A stretch of DNA of 64,000 nt, taken from NCBI RefSeq assembly GCF_902168435.1, contig NZ_LR656177.1, positions 84,803 through 148,802 on the forward strand. Reading direction: 5' to 3'. The position numbers and the translations under genes are program-made. Shown here one piece after another: positions 22,230-63,028 of the stretch (the first letter of the stretch is position 1; each line of letters opens with the position of its first letter). The stretch comes from Bacillus marasmi (GTDB lineage Bacteria; Bacillota; Bacilli; Bacillales; Cytobacillaceae). The notes below the pieces were generated by a model, which saw nothing but the letters and a program-made list of their open reading frames with translations, ran no database searches and had not been told where the DNA came from.

Positions 22230-22269
22230 TTGTTGATTGGAGCGCAGTGCCTGGAGCGGAAATCAACAA
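22230..22269. repeat. Deletion remnant of the 130-bp GC-rich element
   Basis: The segment TTGTTGATTGGAGCG joins directly to CAGTGCCTGGAGCGG followed by AAATCAACAA. These are the two outer ends of the complete element at 27864-27993 with the central ~90 bases missing. The ends remain an inverted repeat. Confidence 0.7.
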
Positions 22270-22313
22270 TTAGCAAACCGAAAGAATAAAAATATTTGAA
22301 AAAGAGGACAAAT

Positions 22314-22793
22314 ATGGATATTCAAACTACCTACCAAGACGCAAAATCACTTATCTTTAAAGTCGGACAAGAAGACTACGGAATCAACATCAACCAAGTA
22401 GTCTCAATCGAGCGGATGCAAAGCATCACCTCCTACCCGAACCGTCCACCATACGTATTAGGTGTCACGAATGTCCGCGAAGAAGTGATACCTGTTGTAG
22501 ACTTACGGGCTGCTTTAACAGGAAAGGCCTTTGCCGAATGTGAGTCATCCAGAATCATCATCGTCCAAGTCAAAAATCACTCAATTGGTCTACTAGTGGA
22601 TGCAGCAACAGAAGTCCTAGACATTCCTGCTACTAGCATCCAGCAGCCACATTTACTTGAAACGAGAGAAGTATCCTATCTAATAGGAATTGCCAAACTT
22701 GAAGAACGACTATTAATTCTCCTAGATATTGAACAGCTACTAGAAGATACAACCAACCTGGATGAACTAAAACTGATTAAAGATATGCTGTAA
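22314..22793 (+). CDS. CheW adaptor protein (second copy)
   Basis: A CheW domain of 159 aa (FKVGQEDYGININQVVSIERM, GVTNVREEVIPVVDLR, GLLVDAATEVLDI). The frame opens at TTG 22296, but ATG 22314 is preferred since AAAGAGGA lies six bases upstream. NVREE replaces the usual NLRG at the CheA/receptor interface, so binding may differ from the first copy. It is followed by an MCP, suggesting a dedicated partnership. Confidence 0.9.
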   Translation: MDIQTTYQDAKSLIFKVGQEDYGININQVVSIERMQSITSYPNRPPYVLGVTNVREEVIPVVDLRAALTGKAFAECESSRIIIVQVKNHSIGLLVDAATEVLDIPATSIQQPHLLETREVSYLIGIAKLEERLLILLDIEQLLEDTTNLDELKLIKDML

Positions 22794-22841
22794 AGTCAAA
22801 AGAGGGCCGTGTCAATGCGGCTACAACAGGGAGTGAGAGAA

Positions 22842-25007
22842 ATGTTTAACAAAATTTTTCATAAAACATCGATGAGTTTTAAACAATGGGGCAGTTACTT
22901 AGTTATCATCGCTTTCTTTGCTGTACTAAATTTTGTTGCATACTTAAGCATTAGTGATTTACAGGAACAAGTCGATTACTTAGGTAATACACAAACGGCA
23001 AAAGTTGAACTTGTCGGTAACATTAAAGAGGATTTTACTCGGGTCCGCTTGTACGTAACAAAGCATGCCTATGAGCACGAACTAGCAGACAAAAACACAA
23101 TGAAAACCTTTATAGATGAAGATATTGAGGATGTACGAAACACAATCAAGGAAATGAAAGAGCTTGATTTAACGGATGAAAATAGTAAGCGTTTAAACGA
23201 CTTTAGCGATGATTTTGAAGCATATACCGCTAGTTTCCCAGATTATTTTGATGGTTCATTAAGCAATGACTATGAAGCTGTTCATGAATTAATGGGCGAA
23301 ATGGCTCCATTAGGTGAACACGCAGTCGCAGCATTACACGCGCTTTCTGAGGATGTTAATAAAGATACGGATAACTTTATCAAAGATTCCGAAGATTTTG
23401 CGATGAAAGCAGTCATTGAAAATATTGCAGTTTCCGTCGGTGCTGGAATTTTCTCAATCATTATTTCATTTATCATGACAAGATTAATTCGTCGTTCCGT
23501 AAATGCAGTAGTGAAAAATGTAGAAATCACAACCAACTCCGTCAACGAAATCAAGAAGTCAATCGATCAATCAGCGGTTGCGGCGCATACGCTTGATGAT
23601 TCAATGGATAAGACAAGTGATTCATTAAATGAACTTGTTTCATCGATTCAGGAGGTTGCCGGAAATACAACCACAACAACTTCTGGCGTCAACGAAATCT
23701 CAGCAGCCATCGAAGAAATGAGCAGCACAATCAGCTTAGTGGCAACAAGTGCCGACCACCTGTCAGATGCAGCAGATAAGAGTTCCAACGCTATTCAAGA
23801 AATGATGGCTTCTATCGAACAAGTAGCTGGTAATGCTGGAAATGTTGGTGCGGGCGTTGAACAAATTTCTGCCTCAATCGAAGAAATGAGTAAATCAATC
23901 GATGTTGTTTCTGATAGTGCTGTAAGTCTATTAAAAACCGCAGATGAAACATCAATATCAGTTCAAGAAATGATTACCTCAGTACAACAGGTTGCATCAA
24001 GCACTCATAAAATGAACGAGCTTAGCCAATCTGTTAAAACGGATGCAGTTGAAGGTGCTGGGACCGTTAATGAAACATTAAATGCAATGAAGGAAATTTC
24101 TAAAGAAATCAACCAAGCTAGCAATGTGATGATTAACCTCGGCAAGAGTTCTGAGGAAATCGGCAGCATTATCGAAACGATTGATGATATTGCTGGTCAA
24201 ACAAACTTGCTGGCACTTAACGCAGCAATCGAAGCGGCCCGTGCTGGCGAACACGGAAAAGGCTTCGCCGTTGTGGCTGATGAAGTAAGAAAGCTTGCGG
24301 AACGAAGCGCCCAAGCGACGAAGGAAATCGCTAACTTAATTAAAGGTATTCAAAATGAAACCGTAGTGGCAGTCAACTCGATTAAGAGCGGTGCCGATAA
24401 GGTTGAGGTTGGAAACCAGCTTGCTGATAAAACGAATGAAGCCATTAAGAAAATCACGCAAGGCATCACTATTATGAGTGAAGAAATGAATCAAATCGTT
24501 GAAGTAACCGAAACACAATCAAAGAACACTGCACTCATTACGAAATCGGTTGAAAACGTAGCCCATAAAGCATCAGAAATGACGCAATCAACAAAAGAAC
24601 AATCGTTAACTGCCCAAGAAGTAGTTAAAGGTATTATGGATATCAAAAACCAAGTTCAACAAATTACTTCTGCTACTGCTGAGCAAGCTAGAGGCGGCCG
24701 TGAAATTGTTACTTCAGTTGAAGACGTATCTAGTCAATCAAACTCAGTTACGGCGGCAACTCGCGAGCAAGCATTGGCAGCTGAGGAAATCGTTCGCAAC
24801 CTTAATGCAATTAAAAACATGGTCAAAGAAATCACCGTCGTGACAAACGACCAAGCTCGCTTTGGACAAGAAATTTCATCAGAAATCTCTAAAGTCCGTA
24901 AGCAAACTAACGAGCTAAATGCCAGCATTGAAACGCAAACGAAAGAAGCAGAAGGAGTTGCCGAAGCAATTCACGATGTTGAAGTTCAGGTTGAGAAGTT
25001 GAAATAG
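22842..25007 (+). CDS. Methyl-accepting chemotaxis protein (four-helix-bundle type)
   Basis: The receptor has a first membrane helix (about residues 17-35), a ~150-residue acidic extracytoplasmic domain rich in helices, a second membrane helix (about 190-215) and a long cytoplasmic coiled coil. The signalling tip [20 protein letters not shown] with EVRKLAERS is intact. Several Glu/Gln-rich methylation heptads flank it. The ATG at 22842 with GGGAGTGAG upstream is preferred to the GTG at 22809, giving 721 aa. Ligand unknown. Confidence 0.92.
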
Positions 25008-37149: not shown

Positions 37150-38622
37150 TTGATCATTAATCATAATTTAGCAGCATTAAATACAATAAATAAATTAACA
37201 AAAAACAACAAAAGCAATACAAATGCAATCGAAAAGTTAGCATCTGGCTTACGTATAAATAAAGCTGCTGATGACGCAGCAGGTTTGGCTATTTCGGAAA
37301 AAATGAGAGCACAAATCCGAGGAACTGAACAAGCGAATAAAAACATTCAGGATGGCATATCTCTTATTCAGAGTGCAGACGCAGCTCTTGGACAAATTCA
37401 AAATCCCAATTTACAAAGAATAAGGGAATTAGCAATACAAGCAGCTAATGATACACTTACCGCAGAAGATAGGGGAGCAATACAAACAGAAATTGACCAA
37501 ATAAAATTAGGAATAGATGATATTGCAAATAATACTGAATTTAATAGTATTAAAATCCTTAGACCACCAATTATTGAAACTCCACCAGTTACTGTTCCAG
37601 GTAAATCAGATATTATTTTTATTATTGATAATACGGGGAGCATGGGATCACCAATCGCAAATGTAAAAAATAACATTGAAAGCTTTGTTAATAAAATGAA
37701 AGATGAGGGAGTAGATGTTAGGTTAGGTTTAGTTACATATGGCGATATATCACCATCTGAAAATGGTGAGTGGGTTGAGAAAAAAGACTTTGTTACGGAC
37801 GTAGAAGTTTTCAAAACATATATTGGAAGTGTTCCAGCAATTGGCGGAGGCGATACGGAGGAATCTGGACTAGAAGGTATTGCTGACCCAACCAATGGTG
37901 CATTAAGCTTTTCCTTCCGGGAGGATGCGACTAAACAATTTATTTTAGTTACAGATGCACCTGTCCATGACAACGCAACTGATGGTGACGGTGGGGATGG
38001 GCAATCGAGCTATGATATAGATGACGTTGCCAATTTGTTAAAAACAAATAATATTAAATTACATGTAGTTTCATCAACTGCTTCAGGGATTGCCACGCAA
38101 TTAGATCGGCTAACCACCCCAACCGGTGGTACATATATGGATATTTATGGTGACTTTTCGTCTCAATTAAGCTCGCTAGCTTCTAGTATTATTGTTGATT
38201 CTGGCAATAAAGAAGAATTGGAAAATATGCCACCAATCACTCTACAAGTTGGAGCAAATTCTGGTGACTCTTTTTTGATTGAGTTATTTGATGCTCGTAC
38301 AGATAAATTAAAAATAGCTACACTATCTATTAATCCAGCTGATAAAGCTCAAGAAGCAATCACATTAATAGATGAAGCAATCAAGATGATTTCTTCTCAA
38401 CGAGGTAAATTGGGAGCCTATCAAAATGCATTAGAGCACATCCAGAATAATATTTCAAATTATGGTATTAATATAACCGCAGCAGAATCAGGTATTCGTG
38501 ATTCAGACATGGCAAAAGAAGTAATGGCGCAAGCCAAAAATTCAATTCTATCTCAGTCTGCTCAAGCAATGCTGATACAAGCAAATCAGCAACCTCAAGC
38601 CGTTTTACAGCTTCTTCGATAA
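37150..38622 (+). CDS. Flagellin with an inserted von Willebrand factor A domain
   Basis: Starting at TTG (AAGGTGAT upstream), the 490-aa protein has a standard N-terminal flagellin domain (MIINHNLAALNTINKL, ASGLRINKAADDAAGLAISEKMR, residues 1-139) and C-terminal domain (about 370-490, ending QQPQAVLQLLR). Between them, about residues 154-352, sits a VWA domain: FIIDNTGSMG with MIDAS residues Asp160, Thr162 and Ser164, then VTYGD and ILVTDAP. The domain should be displayed on the filament surface and bind metal and possibly a host, matrix or cell ligand. Export and polymerisation regions look intact. Confidence 0.93.
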   Translation: MIINHNLAALNTINKLTKNNKSNTNAIEKLASGLRINKAADDAAGLAISEKMRAQIRGTEQANKNIQDGISLIQSADAALGQIQNPNLQRIRELAIQAANDTLTAEDRGAIQTEIDQIKLGIDDIANNTEFNSIKILRPPIIETPPVTVPGKSDIIFIIDNTGSMGSPIANVKNNIESFVNKMKDEGVDVRLGLVTYGDISPSENGEWVEKKDFVTDVEVFKTYIGSVPAIGGGDTEESGLEGIADPTNGALSFSFREDATKQFILVTDAPVHDNATDGDGGDGQSSYDIDDVANLLKTNNIKLHVVSSTASGIATQLDRLTTPTGGTYMDIYGDFSSQLSSLASSIIVDSGNKEELENMPPITLQVGANSGDSFLIELFDARTDKLKIATLSINPADKAQEAITLIDEAIKMISSQRGKLGAYQNALEHIQNNISNYGINITAAESGIRDSDMAKEVMAQAKNSILSQSAQAMLIQANQQPQAVLQLLR

Positions 38623-40014: not shown

Positions 40015-40506
40015 ATGAGCGAAGCAATGGATCCCGAATTATTGGAAGTGGAAGGTGATACGCTGAAGAACAGGTTTCTCATTTTTGTGCTTGGGAATGA
40101 AACGTACGGAATTGAAATTGAGTATGTCACGGAAATTATTGGCTTACAGCCGGTGACTGAGGTACCTGAGTTACCCGAGTATATTCGGGGAATTATTAAT
40201 TTGCGTGGAAAAATTATTCCTGTTATGGATGTAAGACTCCGTTTTAGGAAGCCATTTAAAGAATACAATGATCGGACCTGCGTGGTGGTAATCGAAAATG
40301 AGGATATCACGATTGGACTCATTGTTGATAGTGTTTCAGAGGTCCTATCGATACCAGAAACGGAAGTGGTGCCTCCACCAGACGTGAACAAAACAGGCTA
40401 TAAATACATAAAGGGAATCGGAAAGACCGGCAATGATGTGAAGCTATTGCTCGACTGTAATAAACTCCTCAACGAAGATGATGCAGAAAATCTGTTAAAG
40501 GTCTAG
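40015..40506 (+). CDS. CheW adaptor protein (third copy)
   Basis: The 163-aa CheW domain ([52 protein letters not shown]) has short N- and C-terminal extensions. AAAGGAGGTC precedes the ATG. It is 16 bases upstream of an MCP, suggesting a receptor-specific adaptor. Confidence 0.94.
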
Positions 40507-40522
40507 TAGGGAGGCAAGGGGA

Positions 40523-42814
40523 ATGGAAAGCTCTATTAATATGAAGCTAAGCGGTAAGATATTTGCTGGATTTTTCATTATGATTTTTGTCGCTGGAATT
40601 GTCGGCTATTATGGTGGATTGGACACCCCGTTATTATTAACTTTAATTGGCGTACTTTTAATAGTAGGAATTGTCTTAAGTAGTGTGATTAGCAGTTCAA
40701 TTCGCAATCCGTTTCGTAGGGTGGTCCATGCGGCAGAAAAGATTACTAAAGGCGATGTGAATGTAAATTTTGAAGATATTAACGATGCTGAATTGAGTCC
40801 ATTGATATTGTCGCTTGATAAGATTGCTGGCAATATCAGAACTCAGTCGGAAGTCGCTGATAAAATTGCAAAAGGTGATTTCGATGTTGAGGTTAAGGTC
40901 CAATCTGAACATGATCTGCTTTCAAAAAGCGTGAAGACTGTTATGGAAACGATGCGTTCGTTTATTCAGGAAACAGAGCATATGGCTAAGGCATATCGTG
41001 AGGGTGAAATTGATGAACTTATACCAACAGAAAAATTTCAGGGGTCGTATAAAACGCTATCAATAGGCATAAATAATTTATCAATTGATATTAAAACGGA
41101 AATGCAAATATTAATGAAGGTAATTGAAGCGTTTTCTAAAGGGGACTTCGATAAAGAACTTCAGCAATTTCCAGGAAAGAAAGCCTTTGTTAATGACGCA
41201 GTCGAAGGTCTAAGAGCAAATGTGAAAAATTTGCTAGAAGAAATGACTACAATGTCAGCTCAGCATGACGCCGGGGATATCGATGTGTTTGTCCCAGAAG
41301 ATAAATTCCAAGGTGCTTATAAGGAAGTGGCCAATGGTGTAAACAGTATGGTTAAGAACCATATTATTGTGAAAAAGAAGGCAATGGCCTGTGTCGCAGA
41401 ATTTGCCCAAGGTAACTTTGATGCGGAGCTTGAGAAGTTTCCAGGCAAAAAAGCATTTATAAATGACAATCTTGAAGCGTTACGAAAAAATCTTAAAGAT
41501 GTCAGCTCAGAAATTAATATTTTAATAGAAGCTTCTAAAGAAGGGAAATTAACCGAAAGAGGAAATGTAAGCAAATTCCATGGTGACTGGGCTGCAGTTA
41601 TCAAAGGCCTAAACGGATTAATTGATGCGATAATTGAACCAGTCCAAGAAGCAGCCGCTGTACTCGATGAAATGTCAAAAGGTAATTTAAAGGTAAGCGT
41701 TAAAGGTAATTATAAAGGCGACCATGCAAAAATCAAGCATGCTTTGAACGACAGTATCGAAACTCTATCATCTTATGTGACAGAAATTTCGAGTGTATTA
41801 ACAGAAATGACGAATGGAAATCTTGTTGTTGGCATTACAAGAGAATACCGTGGTGATTTTGGCGAAATCAAATCATCAATTAATAACATCATTCAATCGC
41901 TAAATAACATTATGCAGGAAATTAATAAAGCTGCCCAACAGGTAGCCGCGGGCTCAAGACAGGTATCAGATTCTAGCTTGGCCTTGTCTGAAGGAGCAAC
42001 TGAACAAGCTGCTTCGATTGAGGAATTAACTGTATCACTTGAAGAAATTTCTTCGCAAACGAAGCAAAATGCTGCTAATGCCGATCAAGCAAATCTACTT
42101 GCCGAAAAAGCAAAGCTGAATGCGGAGCACGGGAATGAGCAAATGAACGAAATGCTGAAATCAATGGCCGAAATTAATAATGCCTCTACTAATATTTCAA
42201 AAATCATTAAAGTAATTGATGACATAGCCTTCCAAACGAATATTCTGGCGTTGAACGCAGCCGTTGAAGCTGCCCGGGCCGGTCTACATGGTAAAGGCTT
42301 TGCTGTAGTGGCAGAAGAGGTTCGGAATTTAGCTGCACGCTCAGCAAACGCAGCAAAGGAAACAACCGATTTAATCGAAGGTTCGATAAACAAGGTTCAA
42401 GATGGAACCAATATCGCGAATCAAACAGCGGAAGCGTTGAAGAAGATTGTGGATGGGGTGGCCCAGGTAACCAATCTAGTCGGGGATATTGCAGCCGCAT
42501 CAAATGAGCAAGCAATGGGCATTTCTCAAGTAAATCAAGGTATCTTACAAGTATCTCAAGTCGTTCAAACCAACTCTTCAACCTCTGAAGAAGGAGCAGC
42601 GGCCAGCGAAGAACTAGCATCACAAGCAGAAATGCTCAAAAACCAAGTCACAAAATTCAAGCTAAGAAATCATCAAACCTTCCAAAATTCAAATTATCAT
42701 CAAGACCAAAACCATTACAATCAAGAATCTACAAACACATATTCAGAAACCGAGGGCGCTAATCCCAAAAGAATCGTATTGAGTGATAATGAATTTGGGA
42801 AGTATACGCATTAG
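40523..42814 (+). CDS. Methyl-accepting chemotaxis protein with tandem HAMP-like modules
   Basis: The 763-aa receptor has two membrane helices (about residues 10-28 and 35-55) separated by only about six residues, so there is no extracytoplasmic sensor. A HAMP follows, then a chain of about six or seven HAMP-like modules each with a G-(D/N/E)-(F/I/L)-D motif (for example [18 protein letters not shown] and [18 protein letters not shown]) to about residue 465, and an intact signalling tip ([18 protein letters not shown]). A His/Asn/Gln-rich tail ends the protein. Sensing is probably cytoplasmic or through a partner. Confidence 0.92.
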
Positions 42815-52244: not shown

Positions 52245-52441
52245 TTGCCTATCTATTTAGAAAAATAGCTATGACAAAGGCACAATTTACATTTTTCTTT
52301 TGCCAAAAGCCCTCAAATCGGCCATTATCTAGTCGAATACCCCGTATGGAAATCTATCATTTTAAGGCTAAGGCCTACACCAATTCTTGTCTTTCGCATT
52401 TACTGAAAGGGAATAATTTAAAAAAGGAAGCGAGGATTAAA

Positions 52442-54214
52442 ATGTCTGATAAACATAAAGAAACAAAATTAACTAAATTCAAAGACTTGAAGTCGACTAA
52501 ATATATTGATACTAAGTATGAGGATACAAAATCAACAAAATACAAAGATGGCAAATCAACAAGTTACAAGAATGATAAGTCAACCAAATATAAAGATGAA
52601 AAAACAACAAGTTACAAGAATGATAATTCAACAAAATACCATGATGATAAAACAACAAGTTACAAGAATGATAAGTCGACGAAATACAAAGAAGACAAAA
52701 CCACAAGTTACAAGAATGATAAATCAACAAAATATAAAGAAGACAAATCAACGAAAAATAAGGACGATAAGTCAACAAAATACAAAGATACAAAATCCGC
52801 TGAAAAGGTAGAAGTAAAATCGGACAAAAAGCGTGACACAAAGGATCAAAAGCGTATCATCATTCGTGGCGCAACGATTGTGACGATGAATCGTAATCGC
52901 GACGTTCTATACAATCAAGATATTCTCGTCGTGGGCAATCGTATTAAAGCAATTGGGGATTGTGACAATGAGCTTGATCGTGCTGATGAAGTCATCAACG
53001 CCAAAGGGCAAATTATCATTCCGGGTCTCGTCCAAACTCATCTACATTTAACTCAAACCTTGCAGCGTAATCTCGTTGCTGACCAGACTTTAGAGCAATG
53101 GCTGAACACGACACTCGCTTTGGAAGCGGCACACGATGCTGACTCAAATTTTTGGTCAAGTATGCTGGGAATCTCGGAACTATTTTTAAACGGGACAACA
53201 ACCATCTACGATATGGAAACAACATTCCATACCAATAGCTGCTTTGAAGCGATGGAGGAAACCGGTATACGCGGCTTTGCTGGGAAAGCGATGATTGACC
53301 AAACAGAACGGGGAGTCAACATTCCAGAAATTATGATTCAGCCCACTGATGTGGCATTCGGCGAGTCGGTTGATTTATTTGAAAAATGGGATGGTCGTAA
53401 AGATGGCCGACTTCGCTACTGCTTCGTCCCACGCTATGCTCCATTTTGTTCTACTAGGCTTTTAAAGCTAACGGGTGATTTTTCAGCAAAATACGGTGCC
53501 CATGTGCATACTCATGCTGCGGAAACGGAAGAGGAAGAACAAGTGGTGATCGAAAATACCGGCATGAGAGAGGTTGAATATTACGATTCGGTTGGCCTCA
53601 TTAATCCAAGAACAGTTTTAGCTCATTGTGTCCATTTAAATGATCGTGAAATAGACATTCTCGCTCGTCGTGGCTGCCACGTCTCGCACTGTCCTTCTGC
53701 TAATCTTTATCTGGCATCTGGAATAGCGCCAATTCCAAAAATGCTAAAACGTGGTGTGAATGTCTCAATTGGACCAGACGGATCAGACAATAACAATCTC
53801 GATAATATTTTAGAAATGCGCCTTGCTGCATTATTGCAAAAGGGTCTTCACCAAAATCCAACAATCCAACCAAGTGCAAAAAAAGCACTAGAGATGGCGA
53901 CGATGGGAGGAGCACGTGCCCTTGGTCTAGAAAACGAAATCGGCAGCATCGAAGTCGGCAAGAAAGCGGACTTAGCAATTCTTGATTTGCGCAAACCGCA
54001 CTCTTGGCCAAATGAAGCGCAAGTGAACTCGGAGGAAAATATTTATACTCGCATTGTCTATTCAGCTAATGCCGCAGATGTCGTTCTCACAATGGTTGAC
54101 GGTAAAGTCGTCATGCGCGATCGCAAACTTTTGACCATCGACAAATATGAGGTACTCCAAGAATCAAACCAAGCCATCAAAAGACTACTAAGAAGAACGG
54201 GATTAGATCGATAA
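52442..54214 (+). CDS. ATZ/TRZ-type amidohydrolase with lysine-rich tandem-repeat N-terminus
   Basis: From ATG 52442 (GCGAGG upstream) the 590-aa protein has two parts. Residues ~9-125 are degenerate 8-aa repeats such as STKYKDDK and TTSYKNDK, arranged as 16-aa pairs, very basic and probably unfolded. Residues ~135-585 form a metal-dependent deaminase/hydrolase: His200 and His202 (THLH), HTHAAETEEE, LAHCVHL and GPDGSDNNN. Relatives deaminate guanine, adenosine-type or triazine compounds. The frame extends upstream to 52271 without a good start. The repeat extension is unusual in this family. Confidence 0.82.
   Translation: MSDKHKETKLTKFKDLKSTKYIDTKYEDTKSTKYKDGKSTSYKNDKSTKYKDEKTTSYKNDNSTKYHDDKTTSYKNDKSTKYKEDKTTSYKNDKSTKYKEDKSTKNKDDKSTKYKDTKSAEKVEVKSDKKRDTKDQKRIIIRGATIVTMNRNRDVLYNQDILVVGNRIKAIGDCDNELDRADEVINAKGQIIIPGLVQTHLHLTQTLQRNLVADQTLEQWLNTTLALEAAHDADSNFWSSMLGISELFLNGTTTIYDMETTFHTNSCFEAMEETGIRGFAGKAMIDQTERGVNIPEIMIQPTDVAFGESVDLFEKWDGRKDGRLRYCFVPRYAPFCSTRLLKLTGDFSAKYGAHVHTHAAETEEEEQVVIENTGMREVEYYDSVGLINPRTVLAHCVHLNDREIDILARRGCHVSHCPSANLYLASGIAPIPKMLKRGVNVSIGPDGSDNNNLDNILEMRLAALLQKGLHQNPTIQPSAKKALEMATMGGARALGLENEIGSIEVGKKADLAILDLRKPHSWPNEAQVNSEENIYTRIVYSANAADVVLTMVDGKVVMRDRKLLTIDKYEVLQESNQAIKRLLRRTGLDR
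52480..52800 (+). repeat. Coding tandem repeats, ~24/48-bp period
   Basis: Within the amidohydrolase gene, the units ACAAGTTACAAGAATGATAA and ACAAAATACAAAGA alternate with few changes over ~320 bases. High identity at the DNA level suggests recent expansion by slippage. Confidence 0.85.
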
Positions 54215-54224
54215 TATTTAAGTG

Positions 54225-54256
54225 CCCTACGTTTAATGGGGCACTTATTATTTTGT
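54225..54256 (+). terminator. Probable terminator of the amidohydrolase gene
   Basis: AAGTGCCC and GGGCACTT form a stem about ten bases after the stop, followed by an imperfect T-rich tail. The arms resemble those of the AGGTCACTTA/TAAGTGCCCT repeat family. Confidence 0.6.
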
Positions 54257-54439
54257 GGAGAATAAAATTGGGATAATTGGGTGAAATCATCTTAAATACT
54301 ATTCATTGAGATGATTTTTGGTGAAAAAATAACGAAAATATCCGGGAAAACTCAAATCTGAGGGGGCAATAAGGTGGAAATCCTGCGAAAATAGTTGAAA
54401 AATCTTCGATGCCCTATTTTTTCTAGAATTATTTGCACA

Positions 54440-54640
54440 CAAAACGGCCTATATGCACATGAAATTGTAGATATGTTACATTTCAAAAAATATATGATAC
54501 AACTTTTTCGATATATGCACGACTTTTGAAATATATGCACAACTTCGCAAGTCCGATCTGAACTTATGCACACCAATTTGCATATTTGCACACAAAATCC
54601 AATATATGCACGGCGGAACCCATATATGCACACTTGCCCC
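54440..54640. repeat. Degenerate array with ATATATGCACA core
   Basis: At least seven copies of ATATATGCAC or close variants (TATGCACA, ATTTGCACAC) occur at ~25-30-base spacing. The minus-strand frame across it (54352-54702) is a by-product of the repetition. The remainder of the ~580-base gap, 54214-54790, contains the two flanking terminators and no gene. Confidence 0.75.
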
Positions 54641-54737
54641 GAGCCTCCAGCCCCGAACCCTGAACCAGAATAATCACGGGAACAAAAAAACTTTATTAAC
54701 AAGTGAACCGAAAATCAATTAGCACCATGAAGCAATA

Positions 54738-54778
54738 AAAGAACCGGCATTGTGAGTTCACAATACCGGTTCTTTGCT
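54738..54778. terminator. Terminator of the 92-aa gene (bidirectional)
   Basis: AAAGAACCGG and CCGGTTCTTT, with inner arms ATTGTGA/TCACAAT, form a long near-perfect stem 15 bases beyond the minus-strand gene. Confidence 0.85.
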
Positions 54779-54790
54779 TTAATCGTAATA

Positions 54791-55069
54791 TTAGTTTTTA
54801 ACTTCTTCCCAATAATACTGAACAGCTTCTTTACGAACAACTTCTGGGCACTCAACTTCATCTTCCCAGTTATCGTAATTATTTTTGCCATCAATGTGCT
54901 GAATATCAACGCTATAGTATTTGTCTTGATATTTAAAAATGACAACAATCATTTCTGAATAGCCAGCGTCATCATTGCCTAGCTCCTGAACAAATTCAAG
55001 TCCATAAGATTCGTGATTTCTTCCTTCTGCAACTGATTCTAGGATAATTTCTTTAGGGAACTTCATCAT
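54791..55069 (-). CDS. Small acidic hypothetical protein
   Basis: A 92-aa (or 91-aa, two adjacent ATG codons) soluble, acidic, Tyr/Trp-containing protein (FPKEIILESVAEGRNHESYG ... WEDEVECPEVVRKEAVQYYW). AAGGAGCG lies correctly spaced on the minus strand and a strong terminator follows, so it is very likely real. I do not recognise the family. Confidence 0.7.
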   Translation of the reverse strand: MMKFPKEIILESVAEGRNHESYGLEFVQELGNDDAGYSEMIVVIFKYQDKYYSVDIQHIDGKNNYDNWEDEVECPEVVRKEAVQYYWEEVKN

Positions 55070-55420
55070 TATCGCTCCTTACGTTTTATAAGCGTATTTT
55101 AATATGCAAATAAATAAAAATAAACAACCTATTGCCTAAAAGTTTGTCGAAATTATGACAATATCTCGATAGTGGAAACTGTGAAACGATATCCATATAT
55201 TAATAAAATAACCATTTAATAGGAATTGCAAACCAGTAATTTCCGCTCTACTGTTTAATCATGTTTTTCGCTGGAATTTGCATAAATTTTCCTAATAAAA
55301 GAATAAAGGTGTTGTATATCACATTTTGATGGGTTAATATATAGTTGATTTTAATTTTTCGCAATAATTTAATAATTTTACATTTCCTTAATAGTGGAGA
55401 TGTATAGTGGGGTTTTTAAT
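55070..55420. other. AT-rich intergenic region before the GGDEF/EAL gene
   Basis: The ~350 bases hold the divergent promoters of the 92-aa gene and the GGDEF/EAL gene; none could be defined with confidence. No gene or structured element is apparent. Confidence 0.4.
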
Positions 55421-57145
55421 ATGATGACGCAAGATAATCAGACGGACCGACAGGAGAATTTACTCAAGGTACTAACTGATATTAAATACGCCCTAGATAA
55501 TTCAGCGATCGTGGCGATTACCGATGTGAACGGAATCATCACGTATGTAAATGACAAATTTTGTAAAGTCTCTGAGTATGAACAAGACGAATTAGTTGGG
55601 GTTACCCATCGCATCCTAAATTCTGGTTATCATCCGAGTAGCTTTTGGAAAAAATTATGGGAAACCGTTAAGTCTGGAAAGAAGTGGGAAGGTGAGGTCC
55701 AAAACCGTAAAAAGGGTGGCAGCACTTACTGGGTCGATACGACGATTATTCCACTCCTTGACAGTGACCACAAGCCATATCAATATGTAGCCATTCGTTA
55801 TGATATTACTGAAAAGAAAAAGATGGAGCAGGAGTTGCTGGAAAGCAAGGAACGATATAAAAAACTAGCCTATCATGATGTCTTAACAGGTTTGCCCAAC
55901 CGGCTTAGCTTTATCGAAACGCTTAATCAAATGATTATCACTCATCCAAAGCTGGCGATTTGTTTTCTTGATATGGATCGTTTTAAGTTAGTCAATGATA
56001 CTTATGGACATGCCTTTGGGGATGAACTTTTAAAGGAATTTGTAGCGCGCTTACAGGTATGTGTTGGCGATCGCTGCATTTGTCTTTCTCGACAGAGCGG
56101 TGATGAATTTATCTTCATTTCTCCTTATTATCACATAACTAAAGTGGAAAAATTGGCGGAACTTATCCAACAGTCACTGACAAAGCCGTTTTATATTAAT
56201 GGAAAAGAAATATTTATTACTGCAAGTATTGGTATTAGTCTGTTTCCGGACCAATCTACAGATGTAGGTGAATTAATTCGTAAAGCGGACATCGCTATGT
56301 ACAAAGCTAAAAACAATGGCGGCAATAAATATGTTATATTCCAAGATCGGCAGGAAGAATCCGTGATTGAAAAGCTGAAAATCGAGAACGCTTTGCGACG
56401 AGCGGTGGAACAGGACGAATTTCGACTATATTACCAGCCGAAAATCAATGTTTCAACAGGACATGTTTATGGCATGGAGGCGTTAATTCGCTGGTATCAT
56501 CCTGAACTAGGTATCGTATCACCCGACCGGTTTATACCAGTCGCGGAGCAAACTGGTCTTATTAATGAAATTGGTGAATGGGTGCTCTGGACCGCCTGTC
56601 AAAAAAATATGCTTCTCCTTGAGCAAGGCTATCGGCTTAGCGTTTCTGTTAACGTTTCTATCATCCAATTAATCCGTCAAGGCTTTGTTGAAAATCTTCG
56701 GAATATCCTAGCTGAGACGGGCTTGCCGCCACACTTTTTAGAGCTAGAGATAACAGAAACAGTTGCGATACAGCATAAGGATTATGTTCACGAGGTACTG
56801 CATTTTCTCAAGGAAATGGGTGTAAAAATTGCGATTGATGATTTCGGTACAGGCTATTCATCGATGATCTATTTGAAGGAAATTCCGGTTGATACTGTTA
56901 AAATTGATCGTTCCTTCGTCACTGAAATGAATCAAAACCTGTTCGACCTGAAGGTAATCGAAGCGATTATTTCTGTCAGTCAAAGCTTGAATTTGTCTGT
57001 CATCGCTGAAGGGGTCGAAACATACGAGCAATTGGAGCTTTTGAAAAGTAAAAACTGCGACAGCGTCCAAGGGTTTATTTTCAGTAAACCACTTCCGGAG
57101 CAAGAACTCGAATTATTTTTGCACAAAAATTTAATCGCTCATTAG
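55421..57145 (+). CDS. PAS-GGDEF-EAL cyclic di-GMP protein
   Basis: Starting at ATG 55421 (GTGGGG upstream) the 574-aa protein has a PAS domain with PAC motif (about residues 18-135), a GGDEF domain whose signature is SGDEF (226-230), and an EAL domain with EAL at 353-355, the ELEITET motif and IDDFGTGYSS. SGDEF may still support synthesis or may bind GTP only; the EAL residues for phosphodiesterase activity look complete. No membrane segment is evident. It may link motility to surface life in this chemotaxis-rich region. Confidence 0.92.
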   Translation: MMTQDNQTDRQENLLKVLTDIKYALDNSAIVAITDVNGIITYVNDKFCKVSEYEQDELVGVTHRILNSGYHPSSFWKKLWETVKSGKKWEGEVQNRKKGGSTYWVDTTIIPLLDSDHKPYQYVAIRYDITEKKKMEQELLESKERYKKLAYHDVLTGLPNRLSFIETLNQMIITHPKLAICFLDMDRFKLVNDTYGHAFGDELLKEFVARLQVCVGDRCICLSRQSGDEFIFISPYYHITKVEKLAELIQQSLTKPFYINGKEIFITASIGISLFPDQSTDVGELIRKADIAMYKAKNNGGNKYVIFQDRQEESVIEKLKIENALRRAVEQDEFRLYYQPKINVSTGHVYGMEALIRWYHPELGIVSPDRFIPVAEQTGLINEIGEWVLWTACQKNMLLLEQGYRLSVSVNVSIIQLIRQGFVENLRNILAETGLPPHFLELEITETVAIQHKDYVHEVLHFLKEMGVKIAIDDFGTGYSSMIYLKEIPVDTVKIDRSFVTEMNQNLFDLKVIEAIISVSQSLNLSVIAEGVETYEQLELLKSKNCDSVQGFIFSKPLPEQELELFLHKNLIAH

Positions 57146-57153
57146 CAAGTCTG

Positions 57154-57188
57154 TAGACTACATTTCGAAATGAATGTAGTCTTTTTGT
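57154..57188 (+). terminator. Terminator of the GGDEF/EAL gene
   Basis: AGACTACATT and AATGTAGTCT around TCGAAATG form a perfect 10-bp stem, followed by TTTTTG. Confidence 0.88.
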
Positions 57189-57217
57189 TTATGAAGCTTT
57201 TTTAGCTTAGAGAAGTT

Positions 57218-57246
57218 ATAAAATTCACATAAATAGTGAATTTTAT
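57218..57246. promoter_or_regulatory. Perfect 11-bp inverted repeat upstream of the MCP-B12 operon
   Basis: ATAAAATTCAC (57218-57228) and GTGAATTTTAT (57236-57246) flank a seven-base spacer, about 90 bases upstream of the start codon. The geometry suits a dimeric repressor site. It lacks a T-run and is not a terminator. Confidence 0.5.
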
Positions 57247-57336
57247 CGTTTTTTTAATATAAGAAATGATTTAAGATGAAGATGGAAATGTCTGTATTTA
57301 AGAGCTTAGGCACGCTCGCTATTGGGAGGGCTTAAA

Positions 57337-58860
57337 TTGTCGAATCATTCTTTTTTGGAAAAACAGAAGAAACGATTAGAAAAGCAGCTCAGTGTACTGT
57401 GGTCACAAATAAACTACTGCGAAGATATCGAAACATCCTCAGAGGCACTGGGAGATTATTTGTTAAAAATCAAAAAGATTTACTTAGACTACACTGGTAA
57501 TGAAAATTACATAACCTTGATCGCTGAACGTACAAAGCAAAAAATAGATAATCAATTAACGTTGTTTCTCGATGGTTTAAACAAAATGATTCAGCTTCGC
57601 GAAAACTATACCGAGATTAACGCCAAAATCGTTGAATTAAACAATAATCATACCGAGGTGGAAAGGGAGCTTCAAAAAACCTTTCGCTTATTGAAAGACG
57701 TTTCATCGCAAACGAATATCCTTGCGATCAATGCAAATATTGAGGCACATCGCTTAGGACAGCAGGGAGCGGTGTTTAAAATTATCGCAACCGAAGTGCG
57801 GAAATTATCCGAAGTGACCAGTAATTCTACCACGAATATCACAGATACCACTAGTCAACTTACGATGCAAACTTCAGAAATGACGCATACGCTTAATGAA
57901 AACAATCAAACTTTATTTGCGGTTTTTGAAGAGCTTGAGCAAGGGAAGGAAAGCTTCATTACAATGTATCAGGACTCTGAAAACATCGTCAATGAATCCC
58001 TGATTCTGGATGATACGCTACATATGATACTTGAACTCATTGAAAAAGTGTATGTTTTGGTTGAATACAATAAAATGAGCTATGCCAATGTTAGAAAAAT
58101 CCTTGAGCAGCAGGTCGATTTAACAAAGGAAATGCTTGTTGATTTTAATAAGGAGCTAGGGGTTACTTCGTACCGCATGCGATCTGAAATTACTTCTAAT
58201 TTATATAAAGACTTTTATCGTCATTTTAAAGAAGAAAATTTGGAGGCATGTACCGATTTAATCAAAAATGCCTTGGAGTCCGGCGAGGATGCGACGTTTA
58301 TTACGAATCACATTCTCGAACGAACCGTGGAAACAATCGGTAAAGAGCAAATTGATAAGCTCGTTCCGTTAACTGAAATATATGTAAATGGCCGCATTAT
58401 CGAGGCTTGTATGGATATATTGATTCCGATTTTAGAAAAAGAACACAGAAATAATCACCTCGGAAAAATCATCATCGGAAATGCCTTCGGAGATTACCAT
58501 GCGTTAGGTAGGAAAATTATCGCCACCTTCCTCAAAATGGCGGGATTTGATGTCATCGATCTCGGCTTGTCCGTTGATAATGATGTTTTTGTTAAGGCGG
58601 CAAAAGAACATAACGCGAAACTCATTTGTGTTTCTGCGCTAATTCTCCACACAGCTGAGGAAGTGTCTAGACTAAGAGAATTATTGGATAAAGAAGGCTT
58701 AAACTACGTGAAAATTCTCGTTGGAGGAGCACCTTTCAATTTTGAACCGAGACTCGTTCAAACCGTCAAAGCCGATGCGATGGCTACAACCGGGATTGAA
58801 GCAGTTAAAGTTGCCAAGGAATTGCTTGGTCTATTAAGCAGAAGGGTGGGCTTGTCATGA
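57337..58860 (+). CDS. Cytoplasmic MCP-like signalling domain fused to B12-binding domain
   Basis: Beginning at TTG 57337 (TGGGAGGG upstream), the 507-aa soluble protein has an N-terminal coiled coil with a degenerate MCP tip (Gln125, SQTNILAINANIEAHRLG, then EVRKLSEVTS), a helical B12-cap domain (about 290-370), and a cobalamin-binding Rossmann domain with the DxHxxG lower-ligand motif at Asp386, His388 and Gly391 (GDYHALGRKI), then IDLGLSVDND and SALILHTAEE. It overlaps the next gene by four bases. It probably senses cobalamin state or a methyl donor and signals to CheA/CheW. The fusion is unusual. Confidence 0.85.
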   Translation: MSNHSFLEKQKKRLEKQLSVLWSQINYCEDIETSSEALGDYLLKIKKIYLDYTGNENYITLIAERTKQKIDNQLTLFLDGLNKMIQLRENYTEINAKIVELNNNHTEVERELQKTFRLLKDVSSQTNILAINANIEAHRLGQQGAVFKIIATEVRKLSEVTSNSTTNITDTTSQLTMQTSEMTHTLNENNQTLFAVFEELEQGKESFITMYQDSENIVNESLILDDTLHMILELIEKVYVLVEYNKMSYANVRKILEQQVDLTKEMLVDFNKELGVTSYRMRSEITSNLYKDFYRHFKEENLEACTDLIKNALESGEDATFITNHILERTVETIGKEQIDKLVPLTEIYVNGRIIEACMDILIPILEKEHRNNHLGKIIIGNAFGDYHALGRKIIATFLKMAGFDVIDLGLSVDNDVFVKAAKEHNAKLICVSALILHTAEEVSRLRELLDKEGLNYVKILVGGAPFNFEPRLVQTVKADAMATTGIEAVKVAKELLGLLSRRVGLS

Positions 58861-59891
58861 ACTCAATCGAACGGGTAGTAAACGCTGTAACATTTCAACA
58901 GGTCGATCGCGTCCCGGTCATCCCAGTTGCGTTAACGCAAGGAGCGAAGCTATTAAATGTAGATTTACCTACATATCAACAAAGTGGAGTCCATCTTGCC
59001 AATGGCCAGTTAAAGCTTTTGGAGCGGTTGGGGCATGATGGTGTAGTGGGTGTACCGCACGTAATCCAGGACTTGGTTCCTTGGGGCTTGCCACTCACCT
59101 ATAATCTTAACGGCTCACCAATTCTTTCGAAAACTCTGTTTACTAGAGGCGAAGATATTGTAAATTTGAAAGTTCCAAATCCGGCGAGTTCTCATGAAAC
59201 AATGGAAACATTAAAAGCGATTAACATCCTCGCTAAAGAGGTTGGTCATCATACACCAGTTATCGCTGCACAAATTGCGCCGTTTAGTTTGCCGAGTATG
59301 CTGATGGGAACAGGACCGTTTTTGAGGCTTCTTCTTGAGGAGGACCGTAACGGCGATCAATATATGAATCTACTGTTGGATAAATGTAAGCAATATGTCG
59401 TGTCCTGGGCGAAGCAAATGGTTGAGCAGGGGGCGCTCATCATTGTGTTGGCTGATGGAATGGCGTCGGAAACCGTTATCAGTAGACGCTTATTCGAAAA
59501 ATACGTTCATCCGCTGTTGACCGAAACCATTAAAGAAATTGGTGTTCCGGTTGTATATGAACCAGTTGGCAGCACCCAAGGAATATTAGACTTAATTGCC
59601 ACGACTGGTGCTTTGGTCGCAATTATCGAGCACAAGGATAATTTGCTAGAGTGTAAAAAAATCGCCCAAGGTCGGATTGCGATTATGGGTAATTTTAATA
59701 ACATCGAAATGTTAAATTGGAATCCGATTCGGACTCAGCTTGAAGTGAAAAAGGCTATTAACAAGGCTGCCACAGGTTATGGCTATATCGTTTCATCGCA
59801 AGGACCGGAAATCCCATACAATGTCCCAATCGAAGTCATCGAAACCATGGTCCACGCCACCAAGGAATTCGGGAGATATAAGCAAGGATAA
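58857..59891 (+). CDS. UroD / corrinoid methyltransferase (MtaA)-like protein without zinc ligands
   Basis: The 344-aa TIM-barrel-type protein has the family start (SIERVVNAVTFQQVDRVPVIP) and matches MtaA/CmuA-like corrinoid methyltransferases over its length. Where those have the zinc-binding HxC (as in HICGNT) this protein has EPV (residues 235-237, EPVGST), and the late cysteine of the APGC-type motif is Gln. It therefore cannot bind zinc in the usual way. ATGA overlap with the B12-domain gene indicates they work together. Confidence 0.78.
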   Translation: MNSIERVVNAVTFQQVDRVPVIPVALTQGAKLLNVDLPTYQQSGVHLANGQLKLLERLGHDGVVGVPHVIQDLVPWGLPLTYNLNGSPILSKTLFTRGEDIVNLKVPNPASSHETMETLKAINILAKEVGHHTPVIAAQIAPFSLPSMLMGTGPFLRLLLEEDRNGDQYMNLLLDKCKQYVVSWAKQMVEQGALIIVLADGMASETVISRRLFEKYVHPLLTETIKEIGVPVVYEPVGSTQGILDLIATTGALVAIIEHKDNLLECKKIAQGRIAIMGNFNNIEMLNWNPIRTQLEVKKAINKAATGYGYIVSSQGPEIPYNVPIEVIETMVHATKEFGRYKQG

Positions 59892-59964
59892 TATTCATGA
59901 TGAGCAAGTGGAGAGAAGGTGATTTTCTCCGCTTGTTTTCTTTATTTATGGGAGGATTTTTTGG

Positions 59965-60140
59965 TGTTTTTCATGTGAGAGTGTCCAATGGAGCCCTTCA
60001 ATGAAACACATTTGGGGAAAGCTTGGGTGAAAATATGAAACACTTTTGGAGAAAGATTGGGTAGTAATGTATTATGGAGCCTTCCAATGAAACACTTTTG
60101 TGGGAAGCTTGGGTGGAAATGTATCATGGAACCCATATAT
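59965..60140. repeat. Intergenic array with AATGAAACACTTTTG core
   Basis: About three and a half degenerate units contain ATGAAACAC(T/A)TTTGG, GGAAAGCTTGGGTG and TGGAGCC(C/T)T at ~50-60-base spacing. A stem AGCCTC/GAGGCT lies at about 60163-60190. The remaining bases up to 60360 show no gene. Confidence 0.75.
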
Positions 60141-60359
60141 GAGTTACTTTGACGAAAAAAAATAGCCTCAACTCAAACGGAAGAGGCTTTGCCAAATAAA
60201 GGCGAATAAAAACCAATTCCTATTGTATCGTAAAATCAAGCCAAAAAATCTACCATCAATGTCAAAAATAGTAATTAATAGTAGGGATTTTTGAACTTTA
60301 TGACAGAGAAGAAAATATCTCAAACCAAAAAAGACCTCCATATTCAAGGTTGGATTATT

Positions 60360-60875
60360 TTAAGCACCATTATTTAAATCATCATCAATAAATTCATCAT
60401 CAATAAATTTATCCGATACGCTATCTTTGTTAGTATAATTTTTTATTTTATTTATTAACTTTTTTAATAAAGGAGCATTATTATTCTGTTGTTTAAGTTG
60501 TTTAAAATAACAAACTCGACACTCATATGGATTTTTACTAAACTCGGAAACAACTAATTTTTCAATCCCCAATTTTTTAGCTATACATGTTCTATGCTGA
60601 CCATCATCGAAAGCAACATGACCACAATCATTAAGTACTGCGTAAATACCTGTATCCTTTTCGAAAGCGTTCTTTTCTTTTAAATATTCTGCAAACTCTC
60701 TGCAGTAATCAACACTACCATCTGAGTAGCCTTTAGATAAAGGAACATATTTCTCATATTCTTCATCCGTTAGTTCTAGTGAGCATTTCCCAGTTAATCT
60801 TTTAAAACAATCATACTTCCCCAAGTTAAAAGCGTAAGAATATTTTTGCGGATTAATAGTTTCCAGTTTTTTCAC
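60360..60875 (-). CDS. ParB-like DGQHR-motif protein of unknown function
   Basis: The 171-aa protein contains YAVLNDCGHVAFDDGQHRTCIAKKLG, resembling the ParB/sulfiredoxin nuclease-like core DGxHR. Six cysteines, several in pairs (CGH, CRVC), may bind metal. The tail is Lys/Asn- then Asp-rich. It starts at GTG with a ribosome binding site very close by. Neighbours give no clue; the gene is AT-rich and may be acquired. Confidence 0.55.
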   Translation of the reverse strand: MKKLETINPQKYSYAFNLGKYDCFKRLTGKCSLELTDEEYEKYVPLSKGYSDGSVDYCREFAEYLKEKNAFEKDTGIYAVLNDCGHVAFDDGQHRTCIAKKLGIEKLVVSEFSKNPYECRVCYFKQLKQQNNNAPLLKKLINKIKNYTNKDSVSDKFIDDEFIDDDLNNGA

Positions 60876-61024
60876 CTCTCCCTATAGTTATTTATGAGCA
60901 TATTTATTGGCATATGACAATAAAAGTCAGCAGGAGGTAACTGCTGACCAGTTTAATGCATCTAGTTCAATAATGTAATCAAAAAATCATTAACATGGTT
61001 GATAAACGATATTTGGACAAAAAG

Positions 61025-61053
61025 AAAAAACCTTGTTATAGCAAGGTTTTTTC
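61025..61053 (-). terminator. Terminator after tRNA-Ala
   Basis: CCTTG and CAAGG arms (with TTATAG loop) flanked by AAAAAA and TTTTTT, directly downstream of the tRNA on the minus strand. Confidence 0.85.
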
Positions 61054-61057
61054 GGTA

Positions 61058-61131
<74 letters not shown>

Positions 61132-61261
61132 TAATATAAGTCAAATCACGGTATAAGAAAAATTATAGCGAGTAAAACAACGATATGCAAGTGTAAAATC
61201 TGACTAACTTCAAAGGGGAGGTCAGCGTCATTTTACAGGCATTTCTACAAAGGCCATATAT

Positions 61262-61292
61262 AAAAAGGGGAGGAACCAAATCCCTCCCCGAT
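61262..61292 (-). terminator. Terminator of the MgtC gene
   Basis: GGGGAGG and CCTCCCC arms, followed on the minus strand by TTTTTA. Confidence 0.85.
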
Positions 61293-61294
61293 AA

Positions 61295-61990
61295 CTAAGA
61301 CATACTTTCAACTTCAAGCTTTTCAACACCTTCGATATTTACAACATGCTGATACACTTCAGTCGTATCCTCGCTAAAATCAACAATTAGCATTAATTGA
61401 AGTAACAGGTCACCGTCACTTTGATCTTTAATTCGCATCGTTTTAATTTTAATTTCTTCCTTCCTAACTTTATTGATAATATCGTTCATCTTGCTCCGAT
61501 CATTAACATAAAGCTTTAGCTGAACCTCTTTTTCGCGAAGTCTCCGAATCCCGAACAAATTCATGATATACGGAACAATTTCTACGCTAATAATCAGAAG
61601 TACAACTCCGAAGATTGCTTCAATATAAAAGCCGGTTCCAACGGCAATTCCGATTCCAGCAGCTCCCCAAATCATTGCCGCTGTCGTTAATCCGGAAATA
61701 CTCTCATTGCCACGGCGGAGAATAACCCCGGCGCCAAGAAAGCCAATACCGGACACAATCTGCGCTGCCAAACGGAGCGGATCCATCGTAATGTTGACAT
61801 CATCATCACCTGGGAATAAATAAGCCGACTGAATCGACACAATCGTCAGTAAGCAGCTAACAATACAGATAACCAAGCTCGTTTTTAATCCGACCGGCTT
61901 CCGCTTTAATTCGCGTTCAAGACCGATAATTAATCCTAACACCGCGGAAATCCCTAGCTTTAATAAAATATCCCAATCGATCGCAAACAT
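61295..61990 (-). CDS. MgtC/SapB family membrane protein
   Basis: The 231-aa product has about five membrane helices in the first 140 residues with the family motifs LGLIIGLERELKRKPVGLKT and GIGFLGAGVILRRG, then a cytoplasmic ACT-like domain (about 150-231). MgtC proteins affect magnesium homeostasis and ATP synthase in other bacteria. GGGGAGG precedes the ATG. The exact role here is unknown. Confidence 0.88.
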   Translation of the reverse strand: MFAIDWDILLKLGISAVLGLIIGLERELKRKPVGLKTSLVICIVSCLLTIVSIQSAYLFPGDDDVNITMDPLRLAAQIVSGIGFLGAGVILRRGNESISGLTTAAMIWGAAGIGIAVGTGFYIEAIFGVVLLIISVEIVPYIMNLFGIRRLREKEVQLKLYVNDRSKMNDIINKVRKEEIKIKTMRIKDQSDGDLLLQLMLIVDFSEDTTEVYQHVVNIEGVEKLEVESMS

Positions 61991-62140
61991 AATCCTCCCC
62001 CGCTCTTTTCCTTGTAGTTTCTATGTAATAAAGGAATTTGTGTGAAATGCCAATAGGAGTATAGAAAAAACTAAAATAATAAGTGTAAAATTATACCTAA
62101 ATAAATTTTACCATGTAATCATCAAGAAGGAGATTAATAA

Positions 62141-63028
62141 ATGGGGAAAACCTACATAAATCCATATATTGCCTTAGCAATTGGTGTCATCTCTGTTTCG
62201 ACCTCGGCCATATTTGTGAAATTCTCCTCCGCACCAGCAGGCGTGATTGCGTTTTACCGACTCTTTTTTTCTGTCCTGCTTATGTTGCCGGTATTTCTAA
62301 TAAAGTATGTTTCCGAACTTCGACTTATTACGAAGCGCGATTGGCTTTACTCAACCATATCCGGAGTCTTCCTAGCTTTTCACTTTATTCTTTGGTTTGA
62401 ATCGCTCAACTACACTTCTGTCGCCAGTTCAACTGTTCTAGTAACGCTTCAGCCTCTGTTCGCTTTTATAGGCACCTTCATCTTTTTTAATGAAAGGTTG
62501 TCGGTAAAAGAAATATTAAGTGGTGTCACAGCTGTAATAGGGAGCGTTGTCATCAGTTGGGGTGATTTTCTCATCAGCGGTGATGCGTTATTCGGTGACA
62601 TTTTAGCTTTAATCGCTTGTGGACTCATTACTGCTTATTTATTATTTGGACAAACCGTTCGGAAAAGAGTCTCGTTGATCACCTATACATTTGTTGTGTA
62701 TAGCATCAGTTCAATCACGTTACTTCTATATGTATTAATCAACGGTGACAAGCTATTCGGTTACGATAGCGTCAATTGGCTTAATTTCTTCTTGCTGGCG
62801 CTCATTCCAACATTATTCGGACACACCCTTATGAATTGGTCACTAAAATGGCTCAGTACTTCGACTATATCCGTAGCCATTCTTTTTGAACCGATTGGCG
62901 CAACAATTCTTGCGGTCATATTCCTGAATGAAACCATCCTCTGGACTCAAATAGTAGGGGGAATCATCGTGCTAGCAGGTATCATGATTTTTCTAATGCA
63001 TAAGAAAAGAGAAAGAGGCACCCCATAA
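62141..63028 (+). CDS. EamA/DMT family transporter
   Basis: The 295-aa protein has ten predicted membrane segments in two EamA repeats (for example ISVSTSAIFVKFSSAPAGVIAFYR and LIPTLFGHTLMNWSLKWLSTST). AAGGAG precedes the ATG. Members export or import amino acids and other small metabolites; the substrate cannot be told from sequence. The stop codon lies in a terminator loop. Confidence 0.9.
   Translation: MGKTYINPYIALAIGVISVSTSAIFVKFSSAPAGVIAFYRLFFSVLLMLPVFLIKYVSELRLITKRDWLYSTISGVFLAFHFILWFESLNYTSVASSTVLVTLQPLFAFIGTFIFFNERLSVKEILSGVTAVIGSVVISWGDFLISGDALFGDILALIACGLITAYLLFGQTVRKRVSLITYTFVVYSISSITLLLYVLINGDKLFGYDSVNWLNFFLLALIPTLFGHTLMNWSLKWLSTSTISVAILFEPIGATILAVIFLNETILWTQIVGGIIVLAGIMIFLMHKKRERGTP

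Follow-up and report, generated by a model that had tools for sequence, protein, structure and literature searches.

A 64-kb stretch of Bacillus marasmi DNA (the window; coordinates are positions within it, on the + strand, unless a locus or the other strand is named) carries two overlapping genes that appear to encode a signaling unit built around vitamin B12. Gene 1 fuses the signaling hairpin of a methyl-accepting chemotaxis protein (MCP) to a corrinoid-binding region, and gene 2 encodes a relative of UroD and the methyltransferase MtaA. Our main new result is that gene 2, judged by its sequence, is a member of a 26-locus clade whose corrinoid partner is wired to signaling. We favor, with somewhat better than even confidence, the interpretation that the pair is a cytosolic, one-input signaling unit: a corrinoid-state sensor under the control of the UroD-like partner, with CheA as its output. 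The best-known role of B12 is that of an enzyme cofactor; a few regulators use it to sense light or the cofactor itself. The pair and its relatives point to a little-known bacterial sensing route through this vitamin.

Gene 1 (57337..58860) begins with a TTG codon and encodes a soluble protein of 507 amino acids. Gene 2 (58857..59891) encodes a protein of 344 amino acids, identified by Pfam and NCBIfam, with a UroD/MtaA-type fold predicted from sequence. The two reading frames share four bases, ATGA, that form the TGA stop of gene 1 and the ATG start of gene 2. A first-pass annotation of this DNA had described both genes in this arrangement, and had read the first as an MCP-B12 fusion with a B12 cap and a DxHxxG motif. 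Both points are borne out: the reading frames and their overlap are confirmed, the two Pfam domains of gene 1 score above their cut-offs, the motif is present as DYHALG, and the cap is recognized through the NCBIfam model TIGR02370, at a score below that model's cut-off.

The MCP signaling domain (PF00015, 57655..57990) matches at E = 1.4e-16, with 61.2 bits against a cut-off of 34.6. The hairpin tip, QTNILAINANIEAHRLGQQGAVFKIIATEV (57709..57798), presumably the region that contacts CheA and CheW, was compared with MCPs from the window's genome. Its QTNILAINANIEAHR core is recognizable and the flanking residues are unlike those of ordinary MCPs in the window, so the annotation's phrase ‘degenerate chemoreceptor tip’ is fair. 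The protein has no transmembrane-like stretch; its highest 19-residue hydropathy is 1.4, versus 2.4 and 2.9 in two ordinary window MCPs. The corrinoid-binding half, a predicted helical cap followed by a Rossmann domain, occupies 58234..58788. TIGR02370 covers residues 305-489 of it (numbered from 57322) with 105.1 bits, under the model cut-off of 215.3, and the nearest PDB chain is 3ezx, a monomethylamine corrinoid protein (E = 2e-19). The Rossmann domain itself (PF02310, 58462..58803) is matched at E = 5.7e-23, with 81.5 bits against a cut-off of 32.1. DYHALG (58492..58509) is an instance of DxHxxG, the lower cobalt-ligand motif, and a GGAP motif typical of the B12 domain follows at 58723..58734. 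Both motifs are kept in all 23 corrinoid domains of the clade that could be compared (in L054, L056 and L068, the remainder of the 26 loci, that gene is cut off). Loss of DxHxxG among homologues, which the first-pass annotation had named among the observations that would tell against its proposal, was thus not seen.

Gene 2 matches the URO-D family (PF01208) at E = 2e-48. Its top NCBIfam match is MtaA/CmuA (TIGR01463), at 115.5 bits under a cut-off of 235.4, and it falls below the cut-offs of all of the MtaA, CmuA and MtbA models. It is not an ordinary uroporphyrinogen decarboxylase, HemE (TIGR01464, 47.8 bits versus a cut-off of 302.95), nor is it an ordinary MtaA, for the MtaA zinc ligands are missing. 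In the alignment, codons E235-P236-V237 (59559..59567) stand where MtaA-type proteins have the ligands H-x-C, and of codons P317-E318 (59805..59810), P317 stands at the third ligand, a Cys. Of the likeness to corrinoid methyltransferases claimed earlier, then, the similarity to UroD and MtaA stands, and to call gene 2 a working corrinoid methyltransferase would go beyond what its sequence supports. The MCP-type group consists of the seven fusions plus L056. Of the 18 rows that do not belong to it (those with other outputs or with an unseen flank), 17 have a His in the column just ahead of the MtaA His. Another metal site is therefore possible, which counts against a plain ‘no metal’ reading. 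Two zinc motifs of other methyltransferases I occur in none of 27 UroD rows; as even zinc-bearing L035 is without them, their absence is hardly informative.

The pair is rare, yet intact wherever it is found in Bacillales. With the window's own genome included in each count, a gene 1 query matched five genomes in the family (of 193; E ≤ 1e-30), two in the order (of 397; E ≤ 1e-50) and one in a sample of the phylum (of 398; E ≤ 1e-45). At most three first-look candidates were scored per genome in the order and phylum searches, and the phylum threshold was too strict for a distant fusion in genome G922, which came to light via the partner gene. A collection scan, which relied on two brief peptide patterns taken from the helix at the N terminus and detects near relatives only, gave loci in Bacillus sp. 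DNRA2, B. dakarensis, Neobacillus paridis, Calidifontibacillus erzurumensis and Niallia endozanthoxylica; by their identities and places they coincide with the five other loci that the gene 1 query had brought up. Gene 2 follows gene 1 in all six Bacillales loci (the window plus five), so that the search for the same fusion and gene pair in relatives, suggested in the first-pass annotation, found the pair whole each time. Identity to the window ranges from 68 to 87% for gene 1 and from 74 to 86% for gene 2. Between the window and L019, nonsynonymous divergence (dN) is 0.077 and synonymous divergence (dS) 1.444 for gene 1 (dN/dS ~0.05), and 0.085 and 2.230 for gene 2 (dN/dS ~0.04); these ratios are rough, as dS exceeds 1, and in all other pairs the synonymous sites are saturated. 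The gene pair is under purifying selection. Since the whole fusion and its partner recur in 6/6 Bacillales loci, and dN/dS is low, the fusion is not a chance one. Plasmids gave no match at E ≤ 1e-20, a pattern search of viral contigs gave 93 matches of which none was this pair, and there is no sign that it spreads by either means.

Beyond Bacillales, when a profile of gene 2 (A2) was run over the 398 genomes of the phylum sample, six matched at E ≤ 1e-45, its own included. In G922, from another class of the phylum, an MCP-B12 fusion (locus L031) adjoins a UroD gene directly downstream; it shares 25% identity over residues 2-497 and contains both MCPsignal (1.9e-24) and B12-binding (2.5e-23) domains. 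In G616, G961 and G938 the arrangement differs: a stand-alone corrinoid protein adjoins the UroD gene, and the next gene encodes DUF1638 fused to PAS-GGDEF, GGDEF or PAS-HK-REC (HK, histidine kinase; REC, receiver). A second profile, A4, built from the proteins in signaling contexts, matched at E ≤ 1e-60 in 4 of 72 genomes of G922's class, 14 of 97 of G938's, 1 of 1 of G616's and 1 of 15 of G961's, seed genomes included. The weakest match was 7.3e-123, with nothing between that value and the limit. Context counts derived in this way apply to the clade, and not to all UroD-like proteins. The clade comprises 26 loci: 6 from Bacillales, 4 from the A2 phylum search, and 3 + 13 new ones from the A4 class searches. 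The remaining A2 match, G659 (L029/L035), lies outside these counts, since the MtaA zinc ligands are present in it and its fetched stretch showed no corrinoid gene.

An MCP is fused to the corrinoid domain in 7 of the 26 loci. Fifteen others have a DUF1638 output protein downstream, 14 with GGDEF and one with PAS-HK-REC, and GG[DE]EF is kept in every one of the 14. The Pfam cut-off for DUF1638 was passed by 10 of 11 scanned proteins, L064 being below it; for L051, L059, L061 and L068 the assignment rests on BLAST similarity. One locus, L055, has a SpoIIE phosphatase-HATPase protein (6265-7875) downstream of its corrinoid-UroD pair. In the remaining three the decisive flank runs off the contig (upstream in L056, downstream in L062 and L067). 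A signaling output is thus present in 23/23 clade loci whose decisive flank is visible. The flanks of the Bacillus-type pairs contain no DUF1638 gene, the remainder of those genomes not having been searched for one. Among smaller observations, the N-terminal part of the L055 SpoIIE protein resembles, by eye, the linker of the DUF1638-GGDEF proteins. A PAS-GAF-GGDEF-HD protein (7113-9485) lies directly upstream of the corrinoid-UroD-DUF1638-GGDEF triad in L033, and two large GGDEF-containing proteins, PAS-GGDEF-HD by eye (2018-5988), lie directly upstream of the pair with the cut downstream flank in L067.

We propose the following mechanism. The gene 1 product would be a soluble, chemoreceptor-type homodimer that senses through a corrinoid (cobalamin) carried at the hairpin's C-terminal end. 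Corrinoid proteins and UroD-type barrels pair in methyl-transfer enzymes, with the barrel holding the substrate over the cobalt, as in the MtaA/MtbA systems. The TIM barrel of gene 2 may dock on the cobalamin domain in like fashion, and bind a small molecule. Its action would then alter the state of the corrinoid: methylation or demethylation of the cobalt is the most likely change, a shift in redox or ligand state the alternative. The cap domain would pass that state down the coiled coil to CheA/CheW. We infer corrinoid binding, docking, dimerization and contact with CheA from sequence; that methyl transfer is the event sensed is a guess, as is any identity of the ligand. The CheW family (PF01584) is present in 7/7 host genomes. 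The PF01584-matched frames of ~670-795 amino acids resemble CheA by length, CheA itself not having been searched for. Together with the conserved pair and the outputs in 23/23 loci, this strengthens the cobalamin-sensor part of the earlier suggestion, with an output that would presumably reach the chemotaxis array.

Several findings weigh against the proposal. MtaA uses a zinc site to activate thiols, and its ligand columns H, C and C are all unfilled in 26/26 clade members, with all three filled in L035. The RACo activase family (PF14574) is found in 0/7 host genomes, only Methanosarcina acetivorans being positive among 14 control genomes, so that any catalytic cycle through Co(I) would depend on some other reductant. 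Consensus receptor-methylation sites occur in 0/7 fusions and in both of the ordinary window MCPs tested; ordinary MCP-style adaptation is therefore doubtful, and we read gene 1 as a probable receptor that feeds CheA without it, or that acts inside mixed arrays. In favor of the proposal, the corrinoid tree of 23 rows separates the seven MCP-fused domains from the other 16 at 97/97, with L031 on a long branch. In the UroD tree (25 of the 27 rows, L054 and L068 with their cut-off corrinoid genes being left out) the 16 others group at 100/100. The UroD tree does not join the MCP-type partners as one clade against the outgroup L035, whose branch is very long, and the L031 hairpin matches that of the window at 44.6 bits, within the 39.3 to 51.2 bits of five ordinary MCPs from the window genome. 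As it is no closer than these, we do not claim a single ancestral fusion. L007 is disregarded in this comparison, its frame encoding a membrane protein other than an MCP. The missing MtaA zinc site and the missing RACo fit better, although this is no proof, with a module that governs how a single bound corrinoid is set than with a high-flux enzyme. The host has a candidate MetH, read by eye and not from a family scan, and thus a use for cobalamin.

More broadly, corrinoid proteins paired with UroD-like proteins that lack the MtaA zinc ligands may constitute a sensory input module of general use. Such a ‘corrinoid relay sensor’ would sense a methyltransferase-like cobalt reaction and deliver the signal to chemotaxis-type hairpins, cyclic di-GMP (c-di-GMP) synthesis, a histidine kinase or a SpoIIE phosphatase. 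The Bacillus pair would be its chemotaxis version. We hold this wider proposal to be evenly balanced. The simplest reading of DUF1638 in the sister loci is that it reads or resets the corrinoid protein.

Chief among the alternatives is that the pair senses cobalamin supply or the redox state of cobalt (anoxia), and not a methylated compound. We consider this possible, and well short of even; it overlaps the broad form of our preferred explanation, and the likelihoods given here do not sum to one. Oxygen and reductants govern the state of corrinoids, and an element upstream of gene 1, AATAGTGAATTTTATCG (57232..57248), resembles an FNR-type half-palindrome and can be aligned by eye in the upstream regions of 5 of 6 orthologues. 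The element is weak, however: the near-palindrome scores 9/10 in L022 and 8/10 in L020 and is degenerate in the window, and the best-scoring FNR-type site of the window, L019, L021 and L023 is located away from it. Mutant fitness in Phaeobacter places a DUF1638 protein with B12 reactivation, a tie that counts for this reading and for our preferred one alike, although the authors propose no specific function (Price et al., PMC5764234); a predicted role is repeated in PMC12478193. Sensing of supply or redox state leaves the conserved substrate-pocket protein next to the sensor without an obvious purpose, and no Rfam riboswitch matches in 54000-62500.

A second alternative, that the corrinoid acts in the manner of CarH as a light or alkyl-cobalamin sensor and that the UroD-like protein has the accessory role of loading or protecting the cofactor, we think unlikely. 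Known proteins, CarH among them, do use B12 domains as light sensors; PDB chain 8j2y, named as a GGDEF domain-containing protein, matches the corrinoid half at E = 0.00013, and the corrinoid protein of L034 matches the CarH model (NF052513) at 2.4e-7, with 30.3 bits under a cut-off of 400. The window protein scores 12.9 bits against that same cut-off, however, its top matches are corrinoid proteins of methyltransferases, and a UroD-type partner is, to our knowledge, foreign to CarH. About equally unlikely, in our estimation, is a metabolic corrinoid methyltransferase in which the hairpin serves only as scaffold or for placement at the receptor array, without sensing: UroD-type and corrinoid subunits do pair in such enzymes, the top NCBIfam match of gene 2 is of this kind, and the displaced His of the sister rows leaves room for other chemistry without the MtaA site, but the zinc ligands and RACo are missing as described, the sister modules adjoin c-di-GMP, kinase or phosphatase proteins, and no other methyltransferase or one-carbon gene was recognized in the fetched flanks of L019-L023 (by eye, from the starts of open reading frames only).

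Returning to the corrinoid-state sensor that we prefer, the pair can be compared with several known systems. HemAT and TlpD are cytosolic chemoreceptors. Like them, the fusion is soluble and combines an MCP hairpin with a cofactor- or metal-binding sensor domain; unlike them, its putative corrinoid sensor is C-terminal, a partner gene accompanies 7/7 fusions, and consensus methylation sites are lacking. With MtmC, MtbC and MtgC (TIGR02370), of the methylamine and glycine-betaine methyltransferases, it shares cap, Rossmann domain, DxHxxG and GGAP, and these are its best sequence match, but it is fused to an MCP hairpin and scores below the subfamily cut-off. Gene 2 matches MtaA, MtbA and CmuA (TIGR01463; PDB 4ay7) over nearly its full length, and departs from them in its replaced H-x-C...C ligands and its sub-threshold score. 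CarH and other B12-dependent regulators likewise put a B12 domain to signaling use; here, by contrast, the Pfam scan of gene 1 found no helix-turn-helix family at E ≤ 1 and hence no DNA-binding domain, the output is an MCP hairpin, and the partner is UroD-type.

The DUF1638 protein of PMC5764234 belongs to the same domain family as the 15 sister-locus outputs and is also encoded beside a corrinoid protein gene, but it serves methionine synthesis, whereas DUF1638 in the sister loci is fused to GGDEF or a kinase. MtaA-like enzymes of mlp clusters take part in methyl-sulfur or methyl-selenide metabolism (preprint, PMC10418091), and the available part of that text makes no mention of sensors, signals, chemotaxis, GGDEF or DUF1638. 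Desulfitobacterium has a pair of one corrinoid and one UroD-like protein, RdhU/RdhV, with roles suggested from similarity only (PMC9888536); we liken them to the window pair by description. Among the matches listed, open-licence PMC papers contain no description of an MCP-corrinoid-UroD unit or a DUF1638-GGDEF triad. Should our interpretation be true, a corrinoid-bearing hairpin with a dedicated methyltransferase-like partner turns cobalt enzyme chemistry into a sensory input. The pair would then be a form of B12-based signaling, and a class of its own only if methylation of cobalt is the signal. One input module ahead of GGDEF, kinase and phosphatase outputs makes of an odd fusion a testable family, in which the same input can be set against different outputs.

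The two genes lie together as one unit. Gene 1 is preceded by a ribosome-binding site, GGGAGGG (57324..57330), read off the sequence and similar across the six-way upstream alignment, with the TTG start at 57337 six bases 3′ of it. Terminator-like hairpins flank the unit: one at 57155..57182, found by pattern scan (11 pairs followed by a T run), ends the upstream gene, and one at 59902..59938 (16 pairs, with a T-rich tail after it) closes the unit itself. A sigma-D promoter 5′ of the pair was considered and rejected, the top matches being no better than those in shuffled sequences. The gene directly upstream encodes a PAS-GGDEF-EAL protein (55394-57145) that, among the six loci, occurs only in the window and L019. 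Neighbors on both sides are common to these two loci and differ in the other four, as judged by eye from the starts of open reading frames.

Elsewhere in the window, a CheA-like protein, two CheW proteins and an MCP are encoded beside flagellar genes at 19718-25007 (CheW by family match, the rest by eye), and a second CheW-MCP pair at 40015-42814 includes an MCP with a long, repeated N-terminal region (by eye). A tRNA gene lies on the - strand at 61058-61130. A flagellin-like protein of 490 amino acids (37150-38622) has a middle part that resembles, by eye, a von Willebrand factor A domain (DIIFIIDNTGSMGSP...). An amidohydrolase at 52271-54214 is like 5′-deoxyadenosine deaminase, at 507 bits just under the cut-off of 522, and has ~190 extra N-terminal residues in short repeats rich in K, S, T and D.

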